From Fibrobacterota bacterium (lineage in GTDB: Bacteria > Fibrobacterota > Fibrobacteria > UBA11236), in contig JAHFCH010000021.1 in NCBI GenBank assembly GCA_023249635.1, forward strand, positions 1 to 35,787: a DNA stretch of 35,787 nucleotides. The letters run 5' to 3'. Below are positions 6,182 through 15,083 of the stretch, piece after piece (the stretch's first letter is position 1; each line of letters opens with the position of its first letter). The notes beneath the pieces were generated by a model, which saw nothing but the letters and a program-made list of their open reading frames with translations, did not search any database and was not told where the DNA came from. The translations under genes were made by a program, and so were the position numbers.

Positions 6182-6697
6182 TCAGCGGATGGAAGGGAAC
6201 AGGCGCAGGACCGCCAGCAGGGTGAGCACGGCGAGGCCGGCCACCAGCGACCACCAGCCTGCGGCGCCCCACCAGGCGGCCTTGATCCAGGCCGCTTCGG
6301 GACGCTTTCCCGAGGACAGTGCCGCCACCAGGCGGGTAATGCTGATGAGGCCGGTGATGATGAAGCCCAAGGTCATGGGCCAGATCATCGTCCATAAGGC
6401 AAGCATCCACCACGGATGGGATCCGCTGTCATCGGGCAAGGGCATGGGTAGGGAGAAACGCCGGGCCGCCACCGCATAGGCCAGGGAGAAGGCGACCGCC
6501 GCGCCGGTCAGGGTCCAGAACAAGACCCGTTCCTGTTTCCACAAGCCTTCCACCCAGGCGGGATTCTTACCGCCGAAGGTCACTTCCCAATAACCCGCCT
6601 TTTCCCGTTCCAGGCGCAATTGCCGCCCATGGGCTTTGGCCGCGGCCAGGAACAGGGCCGCGCTGCCCGCCAATACCAATATATCCGCCGTGTCCAT
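6182..6697 (-). CDS. Four-helix membrane protein of unknown function
   Basis: The predicted protein has 171 residues with four likely membrane segments at about 5-20, 57-79, 97-122 and 142-167. The loop after the first helix (residues 22-55) is charged (KAHGRQLRLEREKAGYW). I recognise no family. The same frame stays open further upstream, but that part lies antisense to the BON lipoprotein gene, so the ATG at 6697 (MDTADILVLAG) is the sensible start even though its ribosome site is weak. It precedes tag on the same strand by 37 bases. Composition and helix pattern support a real gene; function is unknown. Confidence 0.7.
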   Translation of the reverse strand: MDTADILVLAGSAALFLAAAKAHGRQLRLEREKAGYWEVTFGGKNPAWVEGLWKQERVLFWTLTGAAVAFSLAYAVAARRFSLPMPLPDDSGSHPWWMLALWTMIWPMTLGFIITGLISITRLVAALSSGKRPEAAWIKAAWWGAAGWWSLVAGLAVLTLLAVLRLFPSIR

Positions 6698-6805
6698 CGT
6701 CCGGAAAATAACGTCATCGCCGTTGATCCGCGCCCGGAAAGTCGCGGACCGAAGAAAATTCCCCCGGTATCCCTCCAAAAGATATTTTCGCCTTGGAATC
6801 CGCTG

Positions 6806-6822
6806 CGGGGCATGCAGCCCCG
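6806..6822 (+). promoter_or_regulatory. Hairpin in the leader of the BON lipoprotein gene
   Basis: CGGGGC (6806-6811) pairs with GCCCCG (6817-6822) around a 5-base loop. It ends 8 bases before the AAGGAG ribosome site of the BON lipoprotein gene. It could influence mRNA stability or translation; no known riboswitch or thermometer family is recognised. Confidence 0.35.
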
Positions 6823-6841
6823 GCGGCACCAAGGAGTGAAT

Positions 6842-7459
6842 ATGAACCGACTGATTGGATTGGCAGTCTCCGCCTTGATCAGCATGGGCGGACTCGTCGC
6901 GTGCAATAAAACCGCCCGGCAGGAAAGCGCCGAGGACAAGTCCAATAGCCTGAAACAGGAAGCGCAACAGACCGCCGAGAACATCAAGGAAGAGGCCAAG
7001 GAGGCCGCCGCCGATGTGAAGGAGGGCGCCAGCCAAACCGCCAGCAATATCAAGGAAGGCGCCAATGAGGCCGCCGACAAGATCAAGGCGGAAGCGGAAA
7101 AAGCCGGCGATGCCCTGAAAGAAGGCGCAGACAAGGCCGCAGCCAAGACCAGCGAAGCCGCCCGCCAGACTTCCGCCGACATCCACGAGACCCTGACCGG
7201 GGATCGCGGTAAGACCCCGGCCGATGAGAAGCTCAACGTACGCATCCGGACGGCCCTCAAAGCGAGCGTCGTGGCCTCCAAAGAAGCCGGCGACGTAAAG
7301 CTGGATACCAAGGATGGTCACGTAACCATCGTGGGAACGGTGGCCACTTCGGACGGCAAAAAGGAAATCGCCCATGTGGCCCGCAAGGTCGCGGGGCTCA
7401 CGCATGTGGACGACGATATCAAGATAGCCCAGAAGGTCGGCCAGGCGGCCGGCGACTGA
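6842..7459 (+). CDS. BON-domain lipoprotein with LEA-like helical repeats
   Basis: The start is the ATG at 6842, with AAGGAG 5 bases upstream; 205 residues. The lipobox GLVAC puts the lipidated cysteine at 21. Residues 38-115 are an alanine-, lysine- and glutamate-rich amphipathic helix with an 11-residue period (AENIKEEAKEA, ADVKEGASQTA, SNIKEGANEAA, DKIKAEAEKAG), resembling LEA or apolipoprotein-like repeats. Residues 125-200 form a BON domain (LNVRIRTAL, GDVKLDTKDGHVTIVGTV, GLTHVDDDI), as in OsmY-like stress proteins that associate with membranes. I infer a periplasmic, membrane-protecting role under osmotic or desiccation stress. The neighbouring potassium-related block fits that theme but is not proof. 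Confidence 0.9.
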   Translation: MNRLIGLAVSALISMGGLVACNKTARQESAEDKSNSLKQEAQQTAENIKEEAKEAAADVKEGASQTASNIKEGANEAADKIKAEAEKAGDALKEGADKAAAKTSEAARQTSADIHETLTGDRGKTPADEKLNVRIRTALKASVVASKEAGDVKLDTKDGHVTIVGTVATSDGKKEIAHVARKVAGLTHVDDDIKIAQKVGQAAGD

Positions 7460-7466
7460 TCGACGC

Positions 7467-7490
7467 GGCGCCCCGCTCGGGGCGCCTTTC
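7467..7490 (+). terminator. Terminator after the BON lipoprotein gene
   Basis: GGCGCCCC (7467-7474) and GGGGCGCC (7479-7486) form a perfect 8-base stem with a GCTC loop, followed by TTTC. It starts 7 bases after the stop codon. The T-run is short, so it may be weak, but it separates this gene from the convergent permease gene ending at 7505. Confidence 0.65.
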
Positions 7491-7504
7491 ACCGCTTCAG
7501 GCCT

Positions 7505-9616
7505 TCAGCCCTTTTTAAGGTTGATGCGGATGGGCAGGATGATGAAGGGGATGCCCTGATGGTAAAGCTTCCGCTGCACCGCGAACACGGTGTTGTTGTG
7601 CAGCAGGCGAGAGAACAGGGTCTCTTCCGGGAATACCAGTTGCCCCATGAAGAACACTGCCTGCGGATACCGCGCCGCGATCTTCGCCGCCAATTCCCCG
7701 CTGCCTTCCACCACGTCCGGCGATAACCCCATTACCCCTTCGCCGTGCAAGCCGTTGCGCTCCACGAAGGTCACGTACTCGCCCAAGCCTTCCTGCACAT
7801 GCGCGCTCAGGTTATCCACTTCTTCGGCTCCCTTGAAGCTGCCCGCGTCGATGACGCCCACTTCCAAGAAGACGAAATTCTTGAAGATGCCGCCGAACAT
7901 GCGGATGATTGCCAGCAAGGAATGCAGGCCTAGCCCGTTGAACCCGTTCACGAGCAGCACCGCGGTCTTGGCCTTGGGATTGAAATCGGTATTAGGTACA
8001 GCCACCGTGACGGCCTTCGGCGCCGGCGGGGCCGCGGGATGGTTTACCGCCGAGGGTACTTTGGCCAATTCCTTCTCGTCGGATATGATCTCGATTACGG
8101 GGTTCACCAACGGCAAGGTGGTGGTCTCCTTGGCCCGGGCGATGGCCACCAGGTTGTCCATGCGTTTCAGGACCTTCTCCACGAAATTGTAATGGCGCTT
8201 GATGGCCGAGGCCAGCAGGATGAGCGCGCCGGTGATGACCAGGGTGATCCAACCGCCTTGGCGGAACTTGAGCAGGGTGACCGCCACCAGAATGAATGAG
8301 CAGAGCACCAGTCCCGTGGCGTTCACGGCCAGCTTGCGGCGCCAATGCGCCAATTCCTTGCGCGTGTTCCGCCAATAGCGCACCATGCCCCATTGCGAAA
8401 GCACGAAGGTCACGAACACGGTAATGCTATAAAGGACGACCAGGTATTTTACCGAGCCGCCGGTGAGCAGCAGGGTGGCGACCGCGGCCGCGCCCATGAT
8501 GAAGATGCCGTTCTGGCTCACCAGCCGATCCGAGAGCAAACTGAAGCGGGTAGGGAACCAATGGTCCAAAGCCATGTTGGCAAGCACGCGCGGTCCGCCC
8601 ATGAAACCGGCCTGCGCCGCCGCGAAGAGGATGAGGGCTTCCGAGACCAGGCATACGTAGACGAAAATCCTGCCCGAGGAGCCCGGCCAGGAAGCGGAGA
8701 TGGCTTCGAAGAGCACCGCGTTCAGGGTCTTCCCGGGAACATGCTGCACATGGAACAACAGGTATGCCAAGGTAAGGCCGAAAACCGTGACGGCCAGGGA
8801 TACGGCCATGTAAAGCATGGTGCGCTTGCCCGTTTTCACCTTGGGCTCGCGCAGGATGTTGAGACCGTTGCTGACGGCCTCGATTCCTGTGTAGGTTCCC
8901 GCACCCATGCTGAACGCGCGCAACAGAAGGTAAGCCATGCCCAACAGCCCCAGTTCGGAACGGGTATGCGCCGCCTGGACCGCGGTTTCGGCGGCCACAG
9001 CGGGAAAGTCGAGCAGATGCGTAAACAAGGCGTACCCGATGGCGAAAGCATGGGAGATGACGAATACCAGGAACACCGGTACCAGGGGCATTACGGTTTC
9101 CTTGGCCCCGCGCATGTTCAGCACGGTGAGCAGGACCAGGGCCCCCAGGGAGAATTGCATCTTGTGCGCGGCCCATTCCGGGGGCAGGAAGCTGAACAAG
9201 GCGTCGGCGGCGCTGGCGATGGAGATGGTGATGGTCAGGACGTAGTCGATGAGCAGCGCGCATCCGGAAATCATACCGGCCGTCGGCGAGATCAATTTGC
9301 TGGCCACCAGGTAGCCGCCGCCGCCGGTGGGGAAGACCTCGATCAATTGCGCGTAGCTGGCGCTGATGATGAGCACGGTCAAGGCCGAAGCGATGGCGAT
9401 GAGGATGGCGAGGTGATCGTGGCCGTTCAGGGCCAGGAAGGCTTCTTCGGGACCGTAGGCGGAGGAGGAGAGGCCATCGGAGCCGAGGCCGACCCAGGCG
9501 AAAAAGGCGGCCAGGGCGATGCCGTGGAAGGCCTGCTTGTTGGTGGGATCGATGGCTTGGCCAAGGATTAGGGTTTTACAGCGTTGTAGGAGATTCGGAT
9601 TCTTTTGGCTTTGCAT
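7505..9616 (-). CDS. APC-superfamily potassium-type permease (KimA/KUP-like)
   Basis: The integral membrane protein has 703 residues from the ATG at 9616; a TTG at 9652 would add 12 residues but would overlap the proposed promoter. The N-terminus carries GLGSDGLSSSAYGPEEAFL and QLIEVFPTGGGGYLVASK, matching the KimA (YdaO) branch of APC transporters, relatives of KUP potassium importers. About twelve membrane segments run to residue ~480, including LIDYVLTITISIASAADAL. A cytoplasmic C-terminal domain follows, with TAVLLVNGFNGLGLHSLLAI near residue 555. KimA in Bacillus is a high-affinity proton/potassium symporter. The two-component and KdpD-like genes next door support potassium as substrate here. 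The gene is divergent from the kinase gene across a 235-base region with sigma-54-type signals. Confidence 0.85.
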   Translation of the reverse strand: MQSQKNPNLLQRCKTLILGQAIDPTNKQAFHGIALAAFFAWVGLGSDGLSSSAYGPEEAFLALNGHDHLAILIAIASALTVLIISASYAQLIEVFPTGGGGYLVASKLISPTAGMISGCALLIDYVLTITISIASAADALFSFLPPEWAAHKMQFSLGALVLLTVLNMRGAKETVMPLVPVFLVFVISHAFAIGYALFTHLLDFPAVAAETAVQAAHTRSELGLLGMAYLLLRAFSMGAGTYTGIEAVSNGLNILREPKVKTGKRTMLYMAVSLAVTVFGLTLAYLLFHVQHVPGKTLNAVLFEAISASWPGSSGRIFVYVCLVSEALILFAAAQAGFMGGPRVLANMALDHWFPTRFSLLSDRLVSQNGIFIMGAAAVATLLLTGGSVKYLVVLYSITVFVTFVLSQWGMVRYWRNTRKELAHWRRKLAVNATGLVLCSFILVAVTLLKFRQGGWITLVITGALILLASAIKRHYNFVEKVLKRMDNLVAIARAKETTTLPLVNPVIEIISDEKELAKVPSAVNHPAAPPAPKAVTVAVPNTDFNPKAKTAVLLVNGFNGLGLHSLLAIIRMFGGIFKNFVFLEVGVIDAGSFKGAEEVDNLSAHVQEGLGEYVTFVERNGLHGEGVMGLSPDVVEGSGELAAKIAARYPQAVFFMGQLVFPEETLFSRLLHNNTVFAVQRKLYHQGIPFIILPIRINLKKG

Positions 9617-9646
9617 TTCCACTTCTTGTTTGGCTGACAGCCAAGG

Positions 9647-9664
9647 TAGCAACGGCCGGGCCGT
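9647..9664 (-). promoter_or_regulatory. Candidate sigma-54 promoter (-24/-12) of the permease gene
   Basis: On the minus strand the sequence reads ACGGCCCGGCCGTTGCTA. The invariant GG and GC are exactly 10 bases apart, and the -12 block TTGCT is a full match; the -24 block (CGGCCC for TGGCAC) is moderate. The predicted transcript start is near 9637, leaving about 21 bases before the ATG at 9616. The regulator at 13731-15083 has an intact GAFTGA loop, as sigma-54 activators need. Confidence 0.55.
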
Positions 9665-9726
9665 ATGCAGTTGCAGGCGATACTACGCGGGCTGGAAGGA
9701 GGTAGGCCCGAATTCACGCACTATTC

Positions 9727-9774
9727 CGTGCAGTCTGCACGCCGGTAATCGATCGGCATTGCAAAATGCAATGC
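9727..9774. promoter_or_regulatory. Two tandem inverted-repeat operators (enhancer-like sites)
   Basis: Site A is CGTGCAG-T-CTGCACG (9727-9741), a perfect 7-base inverted repeat. Site B is GCATTGCA-AAA-TGCAATGC (9756-9774), a perfect 8-base inverted repeat. Both contain TGCA-N3-TGCA, and their centres (9734 and 9765) are 31 bases apart, close to three helical turns. They lie about 97 and 128 bases upstream of the predicted permease transcript start, the usual distance for NtrC-family enhancers. I infer that the neighbouring response regulator binds here. Confidence 0.6.
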
Positions 9775-9822: not shown

Positions 9823-9838
9823 TGGCATATCCTTTGCC
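9823..9838 (+). promoter_or_regulatory. Sigma-54-like element overlapping the kinase leader
   Basis: TGGCATATCCTTTGCC has GG and GC 10 bases apart with near-consensus -24 (TGGCAT) and -12 (TTTGCC) blocks. It would start transcription near 9849, only 3 bases before the kinase ATG and past its GGAGG ribosome site (9841-9845). Use as a promoter would therefore make a leaderless mRNA. It may be fortuitous. Confidence 0.3.
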
Positions 9839-9851
9839 TTGGAGGTATTCC

Positions 9852-11684
9852 ATGCTCGGACTCAGGCAAAAGCTTTTCGGCGCGTTCGCGGGCCTGTTTC
9901 TGCTGCTGGTGCTGGTCGCAACCTTGGCCGTGGCCATGATCGGGAAGGTTTCCCGCTCCTTTGAGCAAATCTTCCACGAGAATCTGGCGACCATCCATGC
10001 TTGCCAGGAGATGCGCCGCTCGGCGGAACGGATGCAAGACGCGACCTTGATGCCGATTTGGCGGGAGGCGCCCGTTGACTCAGCCAAGCTAGAGAGGGAA
10101 GCCGCGGGCTTCGAAATCCATTTGCGCTTCCAGCAAGACAACGTAACCGTTCCGGGCGAGCAGGTGTTGACGGACAGCCTTACGGCCGCCTGGTCGCGTT
10201 TCCGTTCCGCTTGCCTCGCTTCGCTCGGAGCCTCCTATCCCCGTGAGGGTCGCGATGCCTATCGCGAATCCCTCGCGGCCTCCTTCCACGCCGTGGAGGA
10301 TCTAAGCGGCCGCATCGTGGATCTCAACGCCGGAAACATACTTTCCGCCGACGGGCAAGTACGTTCGCAGGCCGAATCCGCACGGCGCTCCATCGCGGTT
10401 CTTTTGGTTTCGGGAGGGGTCCTGGTCCTGGCGCTCCTGTACCTCACGGGCCGGCTCATCCTTAATCCAATCCGGACCTTGCTGCTCTCCGCCCAGGAAA
10501 TCGAAAAGGGGAATCTCGATCTCTCCCTGGAAGCGCGCTCCGGCGACGAATTGGGAAAGCTCGCCGAGGCCTTCAACGCAATGGCTGCGCGCTTACGGGA
10601 ATTCCGCCGGTCCGACCGCGCCAAACTCATCCTCACCCAGCGCACTACCCAGATGGCCATCAATAGCCTACCCGATGCGGTAGCCGTATTGGGGGCGGAT
10701 GGGACGGTGGAATTGTCCAACAATCCGGCGCAGAACCTTTTCGGCATCAAGCCGGGAACCCGGGTGGATGGTCTGGGCATTGCCTGGTTGGCCGGGCTTT
10801 TCGCGAAAGCGCAAAGGGAAGCCCGCCCCATTAATCCACAGAGCTACGAATCGGCGATCCAGGTATTCCGCGACGGGGAGGAACGCTTTTTCCTGCCCCA
10901 TCTTATCCCTATTCAGGAGGGAAAGCAGCAGGTGTTTGGGATGACATTGGTACTGGCCGACGTCACCGAGTTACGCCGGCTCGACGAGACCAAGAGCGAT
11001 TTGCTCTCGACGGTTTCCCACGAATTCAAGACGCGGCTGACTTCCGTGCGCATGGCGATGCATTTATTGCTCGATGAAAAGGTGGGTGACCTGAACGCGC
11101 GCCAGGCCGAATTGCTGCTGGCCGCCCGCGAGGATGCCGAGCAATTGCACAAGATGATCGAGGGCCTGCTGGACATCGGCCGCATCCGTTCGGGACGGTT
11201 GAAAATGGAGATGCGGCCCATGGACGCCGGGGAAATGGCCATGCAAGCGATGGAAGGTGTCCGCCACGCGTACCAGGACAAGGGCCTGCATCTGGAGCGG
11301 GTATTTCCGCAGGACCTGCCGCAAATCAAGGCCGATCCATCCCGGGTACACCTCATACTGGACAACCTTCTCTCCAACGCCCTGAAGTATTCCTCCGCGG
11401 GAGGTAACGTGAAGGTTACGGCGGAAGCGGATGACGCATTTGTCACCTTTCGCGTGGCGGATACGGGGGCCGGCATCCCGGCTTCCGAACTTTCCAAGGT
11501 ATTCGAGCGTTTCTACCGAGGGGCGCGGGAGCATGAAGGCGGCGGCGCAGGACTGGGTCTGGCCATAGCCAGGGAAGTGGTGGAGGCCCATGGCGGGCGC
11601 ATCACGGTTGAAAGCAAGGAGGGGCAGGGGACGATGTTCGCGTTCACCCTGCCCCGGGCCGATTCCGATGCGCCGTCGGCATGA
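9852..11684 (+). CDS. Membrane sensor histidine kinase, KinB-like
   Basis: The protein has 610 residues from the ATG at 9852, with GGAGG 6 bases upstream. Membrane helix one spans about 9-30, a helical extracytoplasmic sensor 31-178, and helix two 180-203. HAMP is at 204-256 and a PAS domain at about 265-372. The HisKA domain has the phospho-acceptor His390 in SHEFKTRLTS. The ATPase domain shows the N-box DNLLSNALKYS, G1 DTGAGIP and G2 GLGLAIAREV. The layout matches Pseudomonas KinB, whose partner AlgB resembles the regulator encoded at 13731-15083. The H-box position five after the histidine is Arg395, where kinases of this group normally have Pro; in KinB that Pro is needed for phosphatase activity. 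It starts a three-gene run with the small membrane protein (7-base gap) and the KdpD fusion. Confidence 0.92.
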   Translation: MLGLRQKLFGAFAGLFLLLVLVATLAVAMIGKVSRSFEQIFHENLATIHACQEMRRSAERMQDATLMPIWREAPVDSAKLEREAAGFEIHLRFQQDNVTVPGEQVLTDSLTAAWSRFRSACLASLGASYPREGRDAYRESLAASFHAVEDLSGRIVDLNAGNILSADGQVRSQAESARRSIAVLLVSGGVLVLALLYLTGRLILNPIRTLLLSAQEIEKGNLDLSLEARSGDELGKLAEAFNAMAARLREFRRSDRAKLILTQRTTQMAINSLPDAVAVLGADGTVELSNNPAQNLFGIKPGTRVDGLGIAWLAGLFAKAQREARPINPQSYESAIQVFRDGEERFFLPHLIPIQEGKQQVFGMTLVLADVTELRRLDETKSDLLSTVSHEFKTRLTSVRMAMHLLLDEKVGDLNARQAELLLAAREDAEQLHKMIEGLLDIGRIRSGRLKMEMRPMDAGEMAMQAMEGVRHAYQDKGLHLERVFPQDLPQIKADPSRVHLILDNLLSNALKYSSAGGNVKVTAEADDAFVTFRVADTGAGIPASELSKVFERFYRGAREHEGGGAGLGLAIAREVVEAHGGRITVESKEGQGTMFAFTLPRADSDAPSA

Positions 11685-11691
11685 GAGGGAT

Positions 11692-12063
11692 ATGCGAAGG
11701 AGCGTGAGTACCGGAACCATTATAGGGGTCCTGGTCCTATTGTTTTTCGCTTATGCGGTCTTCCGGGAGCCAAAGGTAAACCTGGGCCCCTGCGCCATGG
11801 ACTATTCGGTATCCAACCGGTTCCTTCCCAACTTCATCCCCGATCGGAATATACCGTATGCGTCGATCCGGAGCCTTACCTGTGTTCCGGGGCGGGATGG
11901 TTTGGCCTTGGCCATCGGGTATGCCGAAGACGGGAAGATAAAACTGCTGCGTCTCAATCGCCTCGACATCGATAGCGTGGGAAAATTGGCTGAAGGACTT
12001 TCCAAGCGATCCGGAATCACCTTGCTTCGAAAATGGTCATTTTCCTCGCGCCGGACGAAATGA
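11692..12063 (+). CDS. Small membrane-anchored protein between kinase and KdpD-like genes
   Basis: The ATG at 11692 follows the kinase stop by 7 bases, with GAGGGA before it; 123 residues. An N-terminal membrane helix (IIGVLVLLFFAYAVF, about residues 10-24) is followed by a compact soluble domain. The segment IPYASIRSLTCV...KIKLLRLNR resembles the strand pattern of bacterial PH-like domains, but I cannot confirm this. The gene ends 15 bases before the KdpD-fusion start, so the three genes are probably one transcript. Its place suggests an accessory subunit of the sensing module. I recognise no family. Confidence 0.75.
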   Translation: MRRSVSTGTIIGVLVLLFFAYAVFREPKVNLGPCAMDYSVSNRFLPNFIPDRNIPYASIRSLTCVPGRDGLALAIGYAEDGKIKLLRLNRLDIDSVGKLAEGLSKRSGITLLRKWSFSSRRTK

Positions 12064-12078
12064 AGTAGACTTGGGACA

Positions 12079-13725
12079 ATGACGGACAAGGCCGCATCCT
12101 TCCTCCAAATGATCCGCCGCGACCGGCGGGGAAGGCTCAAGGTGTACCTGGGCTACGCGGCCGGCGTGGGCAAGACCTACCAAATGCTCCAGGAGGCCCA
12201 TCGCCTCCGGGCCGAAGGTATCGACGCTGTCATCGGGGTCATCGAGACCCATGGGCGCAAGGACACCGCCGCTTTGGTGGAGGGCCTTGAGTGCATCCCC
12301 ATGCGCCGCTCCGAATACCGTAGCATCGAAGTGGAAGAAATGGACATCGATGCCGTAATGGCTCGCCGACCGCAGGTTGCCCTGGTCGATGAATTGGCCC
12401 ATTCCAACGCCCCAGGCAGCCGGAATTCCAAGCGCTACCAGGACGTGGAGGACATCCTGGCCGCGGGGATAAACGTCATCGCCACCTTGAACGTGCAACA
12501 CCTGGAAAGCCTTTACGACACCGTGGAAAAGGCCACGCGGGTCAAGGTCCGCGAGCGCCTGCCGGATTCTGCGCTTTCCGAAGCGGACCAAATCATCAAC
12601 GTCGACTTGACGCCGGAAGATTTGCAGAAGCGCCTGAAAGCGGGCAAGATCTATCCCATCGAGCGGGTGCCTACGGTGCTGGATAATTTCTTCCAAACCG
12701 CGTACCTGGAACAATTGCGCGAGCTGACGTTGCGCGAAGCCGCTTCCCAGATCGACTTCCGCCGCCGCGAATCGGCGGGGGATGCGGGCCGCGGCGGTAT
12801 CGATCAGGTAATGGTCTGTCTGGATGCGCGCGGACCCGAAAACGCGGCCTTGCTCCGCTATGGTTCGCGGCTGGCAGGGCGGCTTAACCGCAATTGGTAC
12901 GCGGTCTACGTGCAAACCCTGGAAGAGGGTTCCGCCGTCATTGACGCGGCACGCCATCGGTTGCTGGCCGATACCCTCACCTTGGCGAACCAATTGGGCG
13001 CCACCGTTTTCACCTTGAAGGGCAATGACGTAGCCGAGGCCCTGGCGCGCTTCGCCAAGGAATACCGGGTGGGCCATGTGGTGGTGGGAAAGCCGCATCC
13101 CCGTCCGTGGTGGAAACGTCTACGATCCGGCGAGGTGGTGGAAAGGCTGTTGAACAAGGACGGCGGGTTCAACCTCATGGTCATCGATACGCGACCCACT
13201 CAGGACGGGAAAACCATCGAGGAGGTTCCGGAATCCCCGGCGCAGGTCTCGCCCGCTTTGATCGCGGAAAGGCATAGGCTGACGGTGCAGCTGAAGCCGG
13301 ATCAAATCCTCATTTGGAACGAGCCGCTGACCAAGTTCCAGGCCATGAAGGCGTTGGTCAAGTGCATGCAAGGCAAAACCGGATTCACGGACGAGGATTT
13401 GCTGGCCAAGCTGACGGCGCGTGAGAACGAGGGATCGACCTTCCTCAACGAAGGCGTGGCGCTGCCCCATGCGCGCATCGAAGGCCTGGAAAAACCCTGG
13501 ATGGCAATCGGCCTCAGCCAGGCAGGCATCCTGGATGCCTACACCGAATCCCCCGTGGAGATAGTGTTCCTATTGCTTTCCCCCAAGGAAGGGAACCGAT
13601 CGCATTTGCAGCTGTTGGCCGTGGCCGCCCGCATGATGCAGAACCGCACGCTGCGGAGCCAACTGCGGAAGGCGGAGCACCCGGCGGATGTGATCGCGTT
13701 ACTGGCGGAATCCGAGCTGTCCTGA
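12079..13725 (+). CDS. KdpD sensor domain - universal stress domain - PTS EIIA fusion protein (no kinase domain)
   Basis: The protein has 548 residues from the ATG at 12079. Residues 19-228 are the KdpD N-terminal domain: the Walker-A-like KVYLGYAAGVGKTYQ, ETHGRKDT, the Walker-B-like VALVDELAHSNAPGSR and NVQHLESL. Residues 241-372 form the universal stress (USP) domain found next in KdpD. The protein lacks the four membrane helices and histidine kinase of E. coli KdpD. In their place residues 393-546 form a type-2 PTS EIIA domain of the PtsN/FruA kind, with the phospho-histidine His464 in GVALPHARI. In E. coli, PtsN binds KdpD and regulates potassium uptake in trans; here both parts are in one chain. 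I infer a cytoplasmic potassium or nitrogen-PTS sensor acting on the separate kinase at 9852-11684 or on the permease. The stop is 5 bases from the convergent regulator gene. Confidence 0.9.
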   Translation: MTDKAASFLQMIRRDRRGRLKVYLGYAAGVGKTYQMLQEAHRLRAEGIDAVIGVIETHGRKDTAALVEGLECIPMRRSEYRSIEVEEMDIDAVMARRPQVALVDELAHSNAPGSRNSKRYQDVEDILAAGINVIATLNVQHLESLYDTVEKATRVKVRERLPDSALSEADQIINVDLTPEDLQKRLKAGKIYPIERVPTVLDNFFQTAYLEQLRELTLREAASQIDFRRRESAGDAGRGGIDQVMVCLDARGPENAALLRYGSRLAGRLNRNWYAVYVQTLEEGSAVIDAARHRLLADTLTLANQLGATVFTLKGNDVAEALARFAKEYRVGHVVVGKPHPRPWWKRLRSGEVVERLLNKDGGFNLMVIDTRPTQDGKTIEEVPESPAQVSPALIAERHRLTVQLKPDQILIWNEPLTKFQAMKALVKCMQGKTGFTDEDLLAKLTARENEGSTFLNEGVALPHARIEGLEKPWMAIGLSQAGILDAYTESPVEIVFLLLSPKEGNRSHLQLLAVAARMMQNRTLRSQLRKAEHPADVIALLAESELS

Positions 13726-13730
13726 TTGGC

Positions 13731-15083
13731 TCAGATGCCGTACTTCTTGCGCCGCCGCCACAAGGTGGCCGCGTCGATGCCCAGGATACGGGCAGCCTCG
13801 TCCAGGGATTTGGTCGAGCCCAGCACGAGACGGATATGCGCTTCTTCCAGCTTGTCCAAGGTCACGGCGTCGCCCACTTCGATTTGGCCGGGCCCTTTTT
13901 CCGGATTCAGCCCCAGTTCCGCGGCGCCGATGCGCGTGCCTTGCGACAGGATTACCGCGCGTTCGATGACATTGCGCAGCTCCCGCAGGTTGCCCGGCCA
14001 GGCATGGGCCCGCATGCCCCGCTCGGCCTCTTCCGTGAAGCCCAGGAATTGCTTGCGGTTGCGGGCCGCGTAGAAGGAGAGAAAGCGCTGGGCCAGCAGG
14101 GGCACGTCCTCGGAGCGCTCGCGCAGGGGCGGGAGTTCGACTTGCACCACGTTGAGGCGGTAGAACAGATCCTCCCGGAAGCGGCCGCTATGGGCCATGG
14201 CATCCAGATCCAGATTGGAGGCGGCCAGTACCCGCAGATTCGCCTTGCGGGTTGAGCCTTCGCCCACCCGTTCGTATTCGTGGTCTTGCAAGAAGCGCAG
14301 CAGCTTGGGTTGGACGGCTACGGGCAAATCGCCGATCTCGTCGAGAAACAGGGTGCCTCCATCCAAAGCCGCGATGCGACCGGGATGATCGCGCAAAGCG
14401 CCGGTGAACGCGCCGCGCACGTGGCCGAAGAGTTCGCTTTCCAAAAGCTCCGCCGAGAGGGAAGGGCAGGACACTACCCCGAAAGGCTTTCCTGCCCGCA
14501 GGCTCCAGGCATGGATCAGGCGGGCCAGTACGCTTTTCCCGGTGCCGCTCTCGCCGCGCAACAAGACGCTCGCCTCCGCCCCCGCAACCTGACGCGCCAT
14601 AGCCAGGGCCCGTTGCATCACCGGACTCTTGCTATCCAGATCCGTGCCCGGTTCGCCGTCCGTGGCCGCTTTACCAAGGGCCCCTACACTGGCTTCGGCG
14701 CGCTTGGTCGCGGCCACCCGCGTGGTAATAGCTTTGACCTGTCCGGGAGTGAACGGCTTGGGAAGGTACTCGGCCGCGCCCAGCTTGATGGCTTCCACCG
14801 CGGTCTCTACCGTGGCGTAGGCGGTGATGACGACGATTTTGATCCACGGGCTGGCGGCAATGAACTCCGGAATATGATCGGTGCCCTTGTCTGTGCCCAA
14901 GCGCATGTCCAGGAAAACCAGGTCGAAGGGTTTCAAGGCGGCTTGGGCCAAACCGTCCCTGGCATTCCCCACTGCGGTGACTTTGTGCCCATCGACCTCC
15001 AGGGCCATCCCCAGGGTCTTGCGGATATTGGGCTCATCGTCAACGATGAGAATGTGCAGGCCATCCGGATCCGTTTCGGGCAT
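13731..15083 (-). CDS. NtrC-family sigma-54 response regulator, AlgB-like
   Basis: The protein has 450 residues from the ATG at 15083 (a TTG two codons earlier is less likely). The receiver domain (9-125) has the acidic pair DD at 15-16, phospho-acceptor Asp59 in LVFLDMRLG, the conserved Thr in VVITAYAT and Lys in YLPKPF. The AAA+ domain shows Walker A GESGTGKS, the sigma-54 contact loop GAFTGA, Walker B GGTLFLDEIGDLP and the R-finger region FREDLFYRLNV. The Fis-type helix-turn-helix is at the C-terminus (SLDEAARILGIDAATLWRRRKKYGI region). Overall sequence, including DAATLWRRRKKYGI, is close to AlgB, partner of KinB. It probably receives phosphate from the KinB-like kinase and activates sigma-54 transcription of the permease. 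It is convergent with the KdpD-fusion gene. Confidence 0.93.
   Translation of the reverse strand: MPETDPDGLHILIVDDEPNIRKTLGMALEVDGHKVTAVGNARDGLAQAALKPFDLVFLDMRLGTDKGTDHIPEFIAASPWIKIVVITAYATVETAVEAIKLGAAEYLPKPFTPGQVKAITTRVAATKRAEASVGALGKAATDGEPGTDLDSKSPVMQRALAMARQVAGAEASVLLRGESGTGKSVLARLIHAWSLRAGKPFGVVSCPSLSAELLESELFGHVRGAFTGALRDHPGRIAALDGGTLFLDEIGDLPVAVQPKLLRFLQDHEYERVGEGSTRKANLRVLAASNLDLDAMAHSGRFREDLFYRLNVVQVELPPLRERSEDVPLLAQRFLSFYAARNRKQFLGFTEEAERGMRAHAWPGNLRELRNVIERAVILSQGTRIGAAELGLNPEKGPGQIEVGDAVTLDKLEEAHIRLVLGSTKSLDEAARILGIDAATLWRRRKKYGI

Follow-up and report, generated by a model that had tools for sequence, protein, structure and literature searches.

Paired dyads beside a histidine kinase gene as the probable enhancer of a sigma-54-dependent, Kdp-type potassium-response system in a Fibrobacterota genome

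The window analysed here, a stretch of 35,787 nucleotides from a Fibrobacterota bacterium, carries two perfect dyads in the gap between a transporter gene and a histidine kinase gene. The dyads most likely form an enhancer, or upstream activating sequence, belonging to a Kdp-type potassium-response system of the DVU3334 kind that depends on sigma-54; the enhancer would act on a promoter on the kinase side of the gap, in a genome without kdpA. This assignment draws on the kdp genes present in the kinase operons of three relatives, as well as on similar pairs upstream of kdpFABC in Desulfovibrionaceae. What is corrected is the gene that the enhancer serves: the initial annotation had attributed the element to the transporter gene, there called a permease, which is either not the promoter concerned or no more than one of two.

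The dyad pair, the kinase-side promoter and the surrounding genes

The features of the gap and of the genes around it are as follows.

7505-9616, minus strand: KimA-type K+ transporter gene (the "permease"), likely ATG at 9616; phmmer match to the KimA structure 6s3k (E 3.5e-59), Pfam AA_permease_2
9648-9663, minus strand: permease-facing -24/-12 element of the initial annotation, CGGCCCGGCCGTTGCT, overlapping the extended -10-like TTGCTACCTT; assignment uncertain
9727-9741, no strand: dyad 1, CGTGCAG-T-CTGCACG, core TGCAGTCTGCA, centre 9734; predicted enhancer site of the sigma-54 response regulator
9756-9774, no strand: dyad 2, GCATTGCA-AAA-TGCAATGC, core TGCAAAATGCA, centre 9765; second predicted enhancer site
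9823-9838, plus strand: predicted -24/-12 promoter of the kinase operon, TGGCATATCCTTTGCC; best -24/-12 score of the window, with a counterpart at the same place in four relatives
9852-11684, plus strand: histidine kinase gene (HAMP, PAS, HisKA, HATPase); N-terminus MLGxR kept in five genomes
12079-13725, plus strand: gene for a KdpD N-terminal sensor domain (KdpD-N) fused to Usp and PTS EIIA, without kinase domain; Pfam KdpD 1.4e-91, PTS_EIIA_2 2.5e-21
13731-15083, minus strand: gene for a sigma-54-dependent response regulator (receiver, AAA+ with GAFTGA, Fis-type HTH), from domain and motif matches

Re-reading of the sequence bears out the two perfect dyads, their 31-bp separation from centre to centre and the GG-N10-GC element on the transporter side, together with the distances of -97 and -128 given for them. 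Both dyads share TGCA-N3-TGCA, and these are the only two exact occurrences of this pattern in the window, where 0.49 would be expected. Across the genome (6.75 Mb) there is one instance of the paired pattern and none of its reversed control, while the single pattern is found 32 times (reversed control: 15). Fifteen of these 32 single places were inspected for further targets, and none showed a convincing dyad with a -24/-12 layout. Beyond the dyads the two sites have further sequence in common, forming a direct repeat of 22 nt with GGTAATC at its end, which the initial annotation had missed. That the dyads are chance palindromes of an intergenic gap can hardly be credited: single TGCA-N3-TGCA sites are admittedly not rare in the genome, but two within one gap of 236 bp have a probability of about 1.4e-4 in first-order simulations of the same gap, and four other genomes have the pair at the corresponding position with a spacing of 31-32 bp. 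The dyad pair is a real, conserved regulatory element.

The element at plus-strand 9823-9838, overlooked by the initial annotation, is the highest-scoring -24/-12 sequence across all 35.8 kb, with approximate scoring weights set after the published consensus. It predicts a kinase transcript start at 9849, 3 nt before the ATG. Each of the five Fibrobacterota genomes that carry the regulator has a GG-N10-GC just 5' of the kinase ATG, and the dyad centres lie at -84 to -146 relative to the predicted kinase start in the five, within the roughly 80-150 bp usual for upstream activators. The strength of the element varies, being weak in G119 (AGGCATCAACTTTGCC) and in G125. In the window (9823-9852, plus strand) and in its four counterparts (L116, L131, L129 and L130) the -24/-12 element hugs the ATG, so that the predicted leader measures only 2-4 nt; the kinase transcript would thus be a conserved, nearly leaderless sigma-54 mRNA, which is unusual.

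A candidate activator is encoded in the same cluster. The regulator gene lies downstream of the kinase-side genes and is convergent with them, and its GAFTGA motif is intact. The kinase and kdpD-N genes are separated by a small ORF (11693-12063, plus strand) that has no Pfam match; in G119 they are adjacent. The EIIA domain of the KdpD-N/Usp/EIIA fusion retains an ALPHA motif resembling the EIIA active-site histidine region, and the fusion itself suggests a PTS input to potassium control. Across the gap, the homology of the transporter to KimA spans residues 36-500, the membrane domain, which by sequence makes the "permease" a KimA-family K+ transporter.

Conservation in Fibrobacterota and in Desulfovibrionaceae

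The sites, the promoter-like elements, the gene order and the co-occurrence with the regulator can be followed directly across genomes. A search of 126 genomes of the class for regulator orthologues (E<=1e-120) returned five (G000, G115, G117, G119 and G125), and all five carry the dyad pair, one G115 dyad with one mismatch. The spacing is 31 bp in four of them and 32 bp in G125. This constant association upholds the proposal that the neighbouring sigma-54 response regulator is the fitting one. The assignment to the permease promoter is not supported: in G115, G117, G119 and G125 the pair has the regulator gene on one side and the kinase gene on the other and does not immediately precede kimA, and the conserved -24/-12 element faces the kinase.

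The operon that follows contains kdp pump genes and/or kimA in the relatives. The kinase gene is followed by kdpA and kdpB in G115, G117 and G125 (kdpC was confirmed in G117), then by kdpD-N in G115 and G117, and by kimA in G117, while the order in G119 is regulator-[pair]-kinase-kdpD-N-kimA. KdpA gave no match in the window's genome and none in G119. An ORF at about 6182-6790 near the window's kimA has a look-alike near kimA of G119 (6182-9616 compared with L116 11320-14723), and the orientation of kimA to the kinase gene differs between the two; it looks as if an inversion had made kimA divergent from the kinase gene. G119 also holds a second dyad pair (L116 15723-15893), 30 bp apart and accompanied by a -24/-12 element, CGGCATCGCTTTTGCA, before an SPFH/band-7 gene, which is likely, judged from this layout, to be a second target of the regulator; the window's own genome has only a partial relative of that gene (44% identical).

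The exact pair was seen in none of ten more distant kimA-bearing genomes, nor was a dyad pair seen in L062, a more distant regulator-kinase-KdpD cluster beside kimA from another lineage. For the pairs present in other genomes of the class, a search of the adjoining 400 bp gave no strict match to -24/-12.

In another phylum, several KdpA loci of Desulfovibrionaceae combine a strong -24/-12 element before kdpF/A with paired dyads of the form TTRCA-N3-TGYAA further upstream. The spacing is again 31 bp in G157, G271 and G207; at other loci the dyads are about 20-21 bp apart as read by eye, and some half-sites are imperfect. A regulator 42-49% identical to that of the window is encoded, with KdpD-N and a kinase, at four of five such loci (G157, G234, G271 and G136), while the stretch fetched for the fifth, G207, contained none. 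At the kdp locus of G174, with no such regulator nearby, neither promoter nor dyads were seen. Twenty-two sites from Desulfovibrionaceae genomes read T-[G/A]-C-A-N3-T-G-[C/T]-A, flanked by T and A, counts that illustrate the pattern and do not test it, as the sites were picked by the same pattern. The window regulator and the Desulfovibrionaceae regulators have HTH residues in common.

The view that the dyads are NtrC-type enhancer sites of a sigma-54 promoter is thus strengthened by pairs before -24/-12 elements in Fibrobacterota and by similar ones before kdp operons in a second phylum, and the dyads are likely, from this comparison, to be binding sites of the sigma-54 potassium-response regulator. 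A different dimeric regulator, acting as a repressor of either gene, would be compatible with the generic form of the dyads and with the excess of single copies in the genome over the reversed control; it is improbable given the pairing, the fixed spacing, the place upstream of -24/-12 and the co-occurrence with a sigma-54 regulator in both phyla. In both phyla, paired TTRCA-N3-TGYAA would provide a concrete operator of the sigma-54 Kdp regulators.

Proposed regulation and related systems

In the favoured scheme, the dyads as a kinase-side enhancer, potassium shortage or osmotic stress would be sensed by the separate kinase together with the KdpD-N/Usp/EIIA protein, and the sigma-54 response regulator would become phosphorylated as a result. 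The phosphorylated regulator would oligomerize on both dyads, which lie on one face of the helix, and DNA looping would then drive sigma-54 RNA polymerase at the kinase-side promoter. The output would be transcription of the kinase and kdpD-N genes, and hence positive feedback. KimA, encoded divergently across the enhancer, probably has an ordinary promoter of its own and may also be activated from the same dyads.

The closest known system is that of DVU3334 of Desulfovibrio vulgaris, described as the sigma-54 response regulator of kdpFABC in an operon with a split KdpD (PMC3333781, PMC4641369). As in the window, a sigma-54 response regulator is combined with a KdpD N-terminal/Usp protein that is separate from the kinase (PMC3333781). 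The DVU3334 regulon is a potassium-uptake operon; the dyads were compared with those at related Desulfovibrionaceae loci, where pairs and a -24/-12 element precede kdp. By contrast, the window has its enhancer before the kinase gene, KimA alongside, an EIIA domain on KdpD-N and no kdpA in the genome, so that control of kdpFABC is not found here, whereas three relatives hold kdpA and kdpB in the operon. The regulator has been retained in a genome lacking the pump that accompanies it in relatives, and adjoins another potassium transporter.

Other systems resemble the window in part. KinB-AlgB of Pseudomonas likewise pairs a HAMP-PAS kinase with an NtrC-family regulator, and the end of the window regulator's HTH, TLWRxRKxYGI, recalls that of AlgB; however, no alginate genes were seen in the window, where the linkage is to Kdp and KimA genes. 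NtrC enhancers of the glnA type also consist of paired dyads on one helix face upstream of -24/-12. NtrC sites follow approximately TGCACY-N5-RGTGCA, in which the spacing of the half-sites differs from that of the window dyads, and the window regulator scores 336 bits, far under the NtrC cut-off of 559. The transporter itself is a sequence relative of KimA (YdaO) of Bacillus subtilis, the structure of which has been solved; in that species a c-di-AMP riboswitch controls the kimA gene.

The permease-facing element

The sigma-54 promoter proposed for the transporter gene is uncertain and not well supported. Its minus-strand sequence, CGGCCCG-GCCG-TTGCT at 9663-9648, does contain an exact GG-N10-GC, and the +1 that it predicts (9637) lies 21 nt upstream of the likely ATG, which places the dyads at the -97 and -128 mentioned above; but it overlaps an ordinary-looking extended -10 that is common to kimA relatives lacking the -24 GG. 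The -24/-12 element alone is unremarkable, as GGC-N7-TTGC has 13 matches in the window against 10.5 expected; its score is matched or beaten by six sites of the window, and each strand of a gap like this one would be expected to contain about 0.02.

Conservation of the element was followed to G116, whose kimA is the nearest orthologue (81% identical) and in which the GG-N10-GC is present within a conserved 25-nt block. No dyads occur at that place in G116, and the genome has no regulator orthologue at E<=1e-120, so that conservation of the element does not depend on this enhancer; it may be a sigma-54 promoter that is served there by another activator, or in the window by the dyads. The initial annotation had suggested looking for the repeats before orthologous permease genes and had named their absence from relatives as the refuting outcome. 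Taken literally, this outcome was obtained: among the other Fibrobacterota kimA genes examined, none has the pair directly upstream, and element and activator sites thus do not occur together there. In G117 kimA and four kimA paralogue genes, TTTGCTAT-type boxes are found (TTTGCTA in common) that have no GG at -24.

These observations bear on how kimA is transcribed. It is somewhat more probable than otherwise that the sole promoter of kimA is of the sigma-70 type with an extended -10, namely TTGCTACCTT on the minus strand at about 9652-9643, with the -24 GG being a coincidence and the dyads serving the kinase side alone. Comparable boxes without the -24 GG precede the four paralogue genes (TTTGCTATATTTT) and G117 kimA (TTTGCTATTCT), TTTGCTACTTT is found in G116, and in a sister genus TTTGCTAAAATTC lies shortly upstream of two tRNA-Ser genes; TTGCTACCTT would accordingly represent, as this series suggests, a weakened form of the extended -10. 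Against this, the window box is a poor -10 for which no -35 was identified, the form may not be the housekeeping promoter of the phylum, and TTTGCTATNTTT is uncommon in the genome. Indeed, TTTGCTATATTT was rejected as a genome-wide promoter, since TTTGCTATNTTT has only two matches in 6.75 Mb, and is instead regarded as an element of the kimA group that resembles an extended -10. No 16S was found in these assemblies that would have provided rRNA promoters as a yardstick. A second kimA group (paralogues L117, L118, L120 and L122) has in common an upstream CTTTGCTATATTTT, an element with few other occurrences in the genome.

A less probable arrangement, which we consider unlikely, is that the one pair activates two divergent sigma-54 promoters, those of the kinase operon and of kimA (9663-9648). 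The exact GG-N10-GC at the right distance from the dyads and its place in the block conserved in G116 are consistent with it, and joint control would be kept from relatives that have kimA in the same operon; the persistence of the element in G116 without the enhancer and the TTTGCTA boxes at the other kimA loci speak against it. Divergent activation of kimA from the dyads is therefore put no higher than possible. Were it true, a sigma-54 Kdp regulator would have been rewired, in a genome without kdpFABC, to its sensor operon and KimA, so that a potassium regulon would have exchanged its effector and KimA would be under sigma-54 control, of which we know of no description.

The predicted +1 of the permease coincides with the centre of a perfect 7-bp inverted repeat, TTGGCTG-T-CAGCCAA (9630-9644). 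Its arms TTGGCT/AGCCAA are retained in G116 around a longer loop, and the repeat could be an operator or a leader hairpin.
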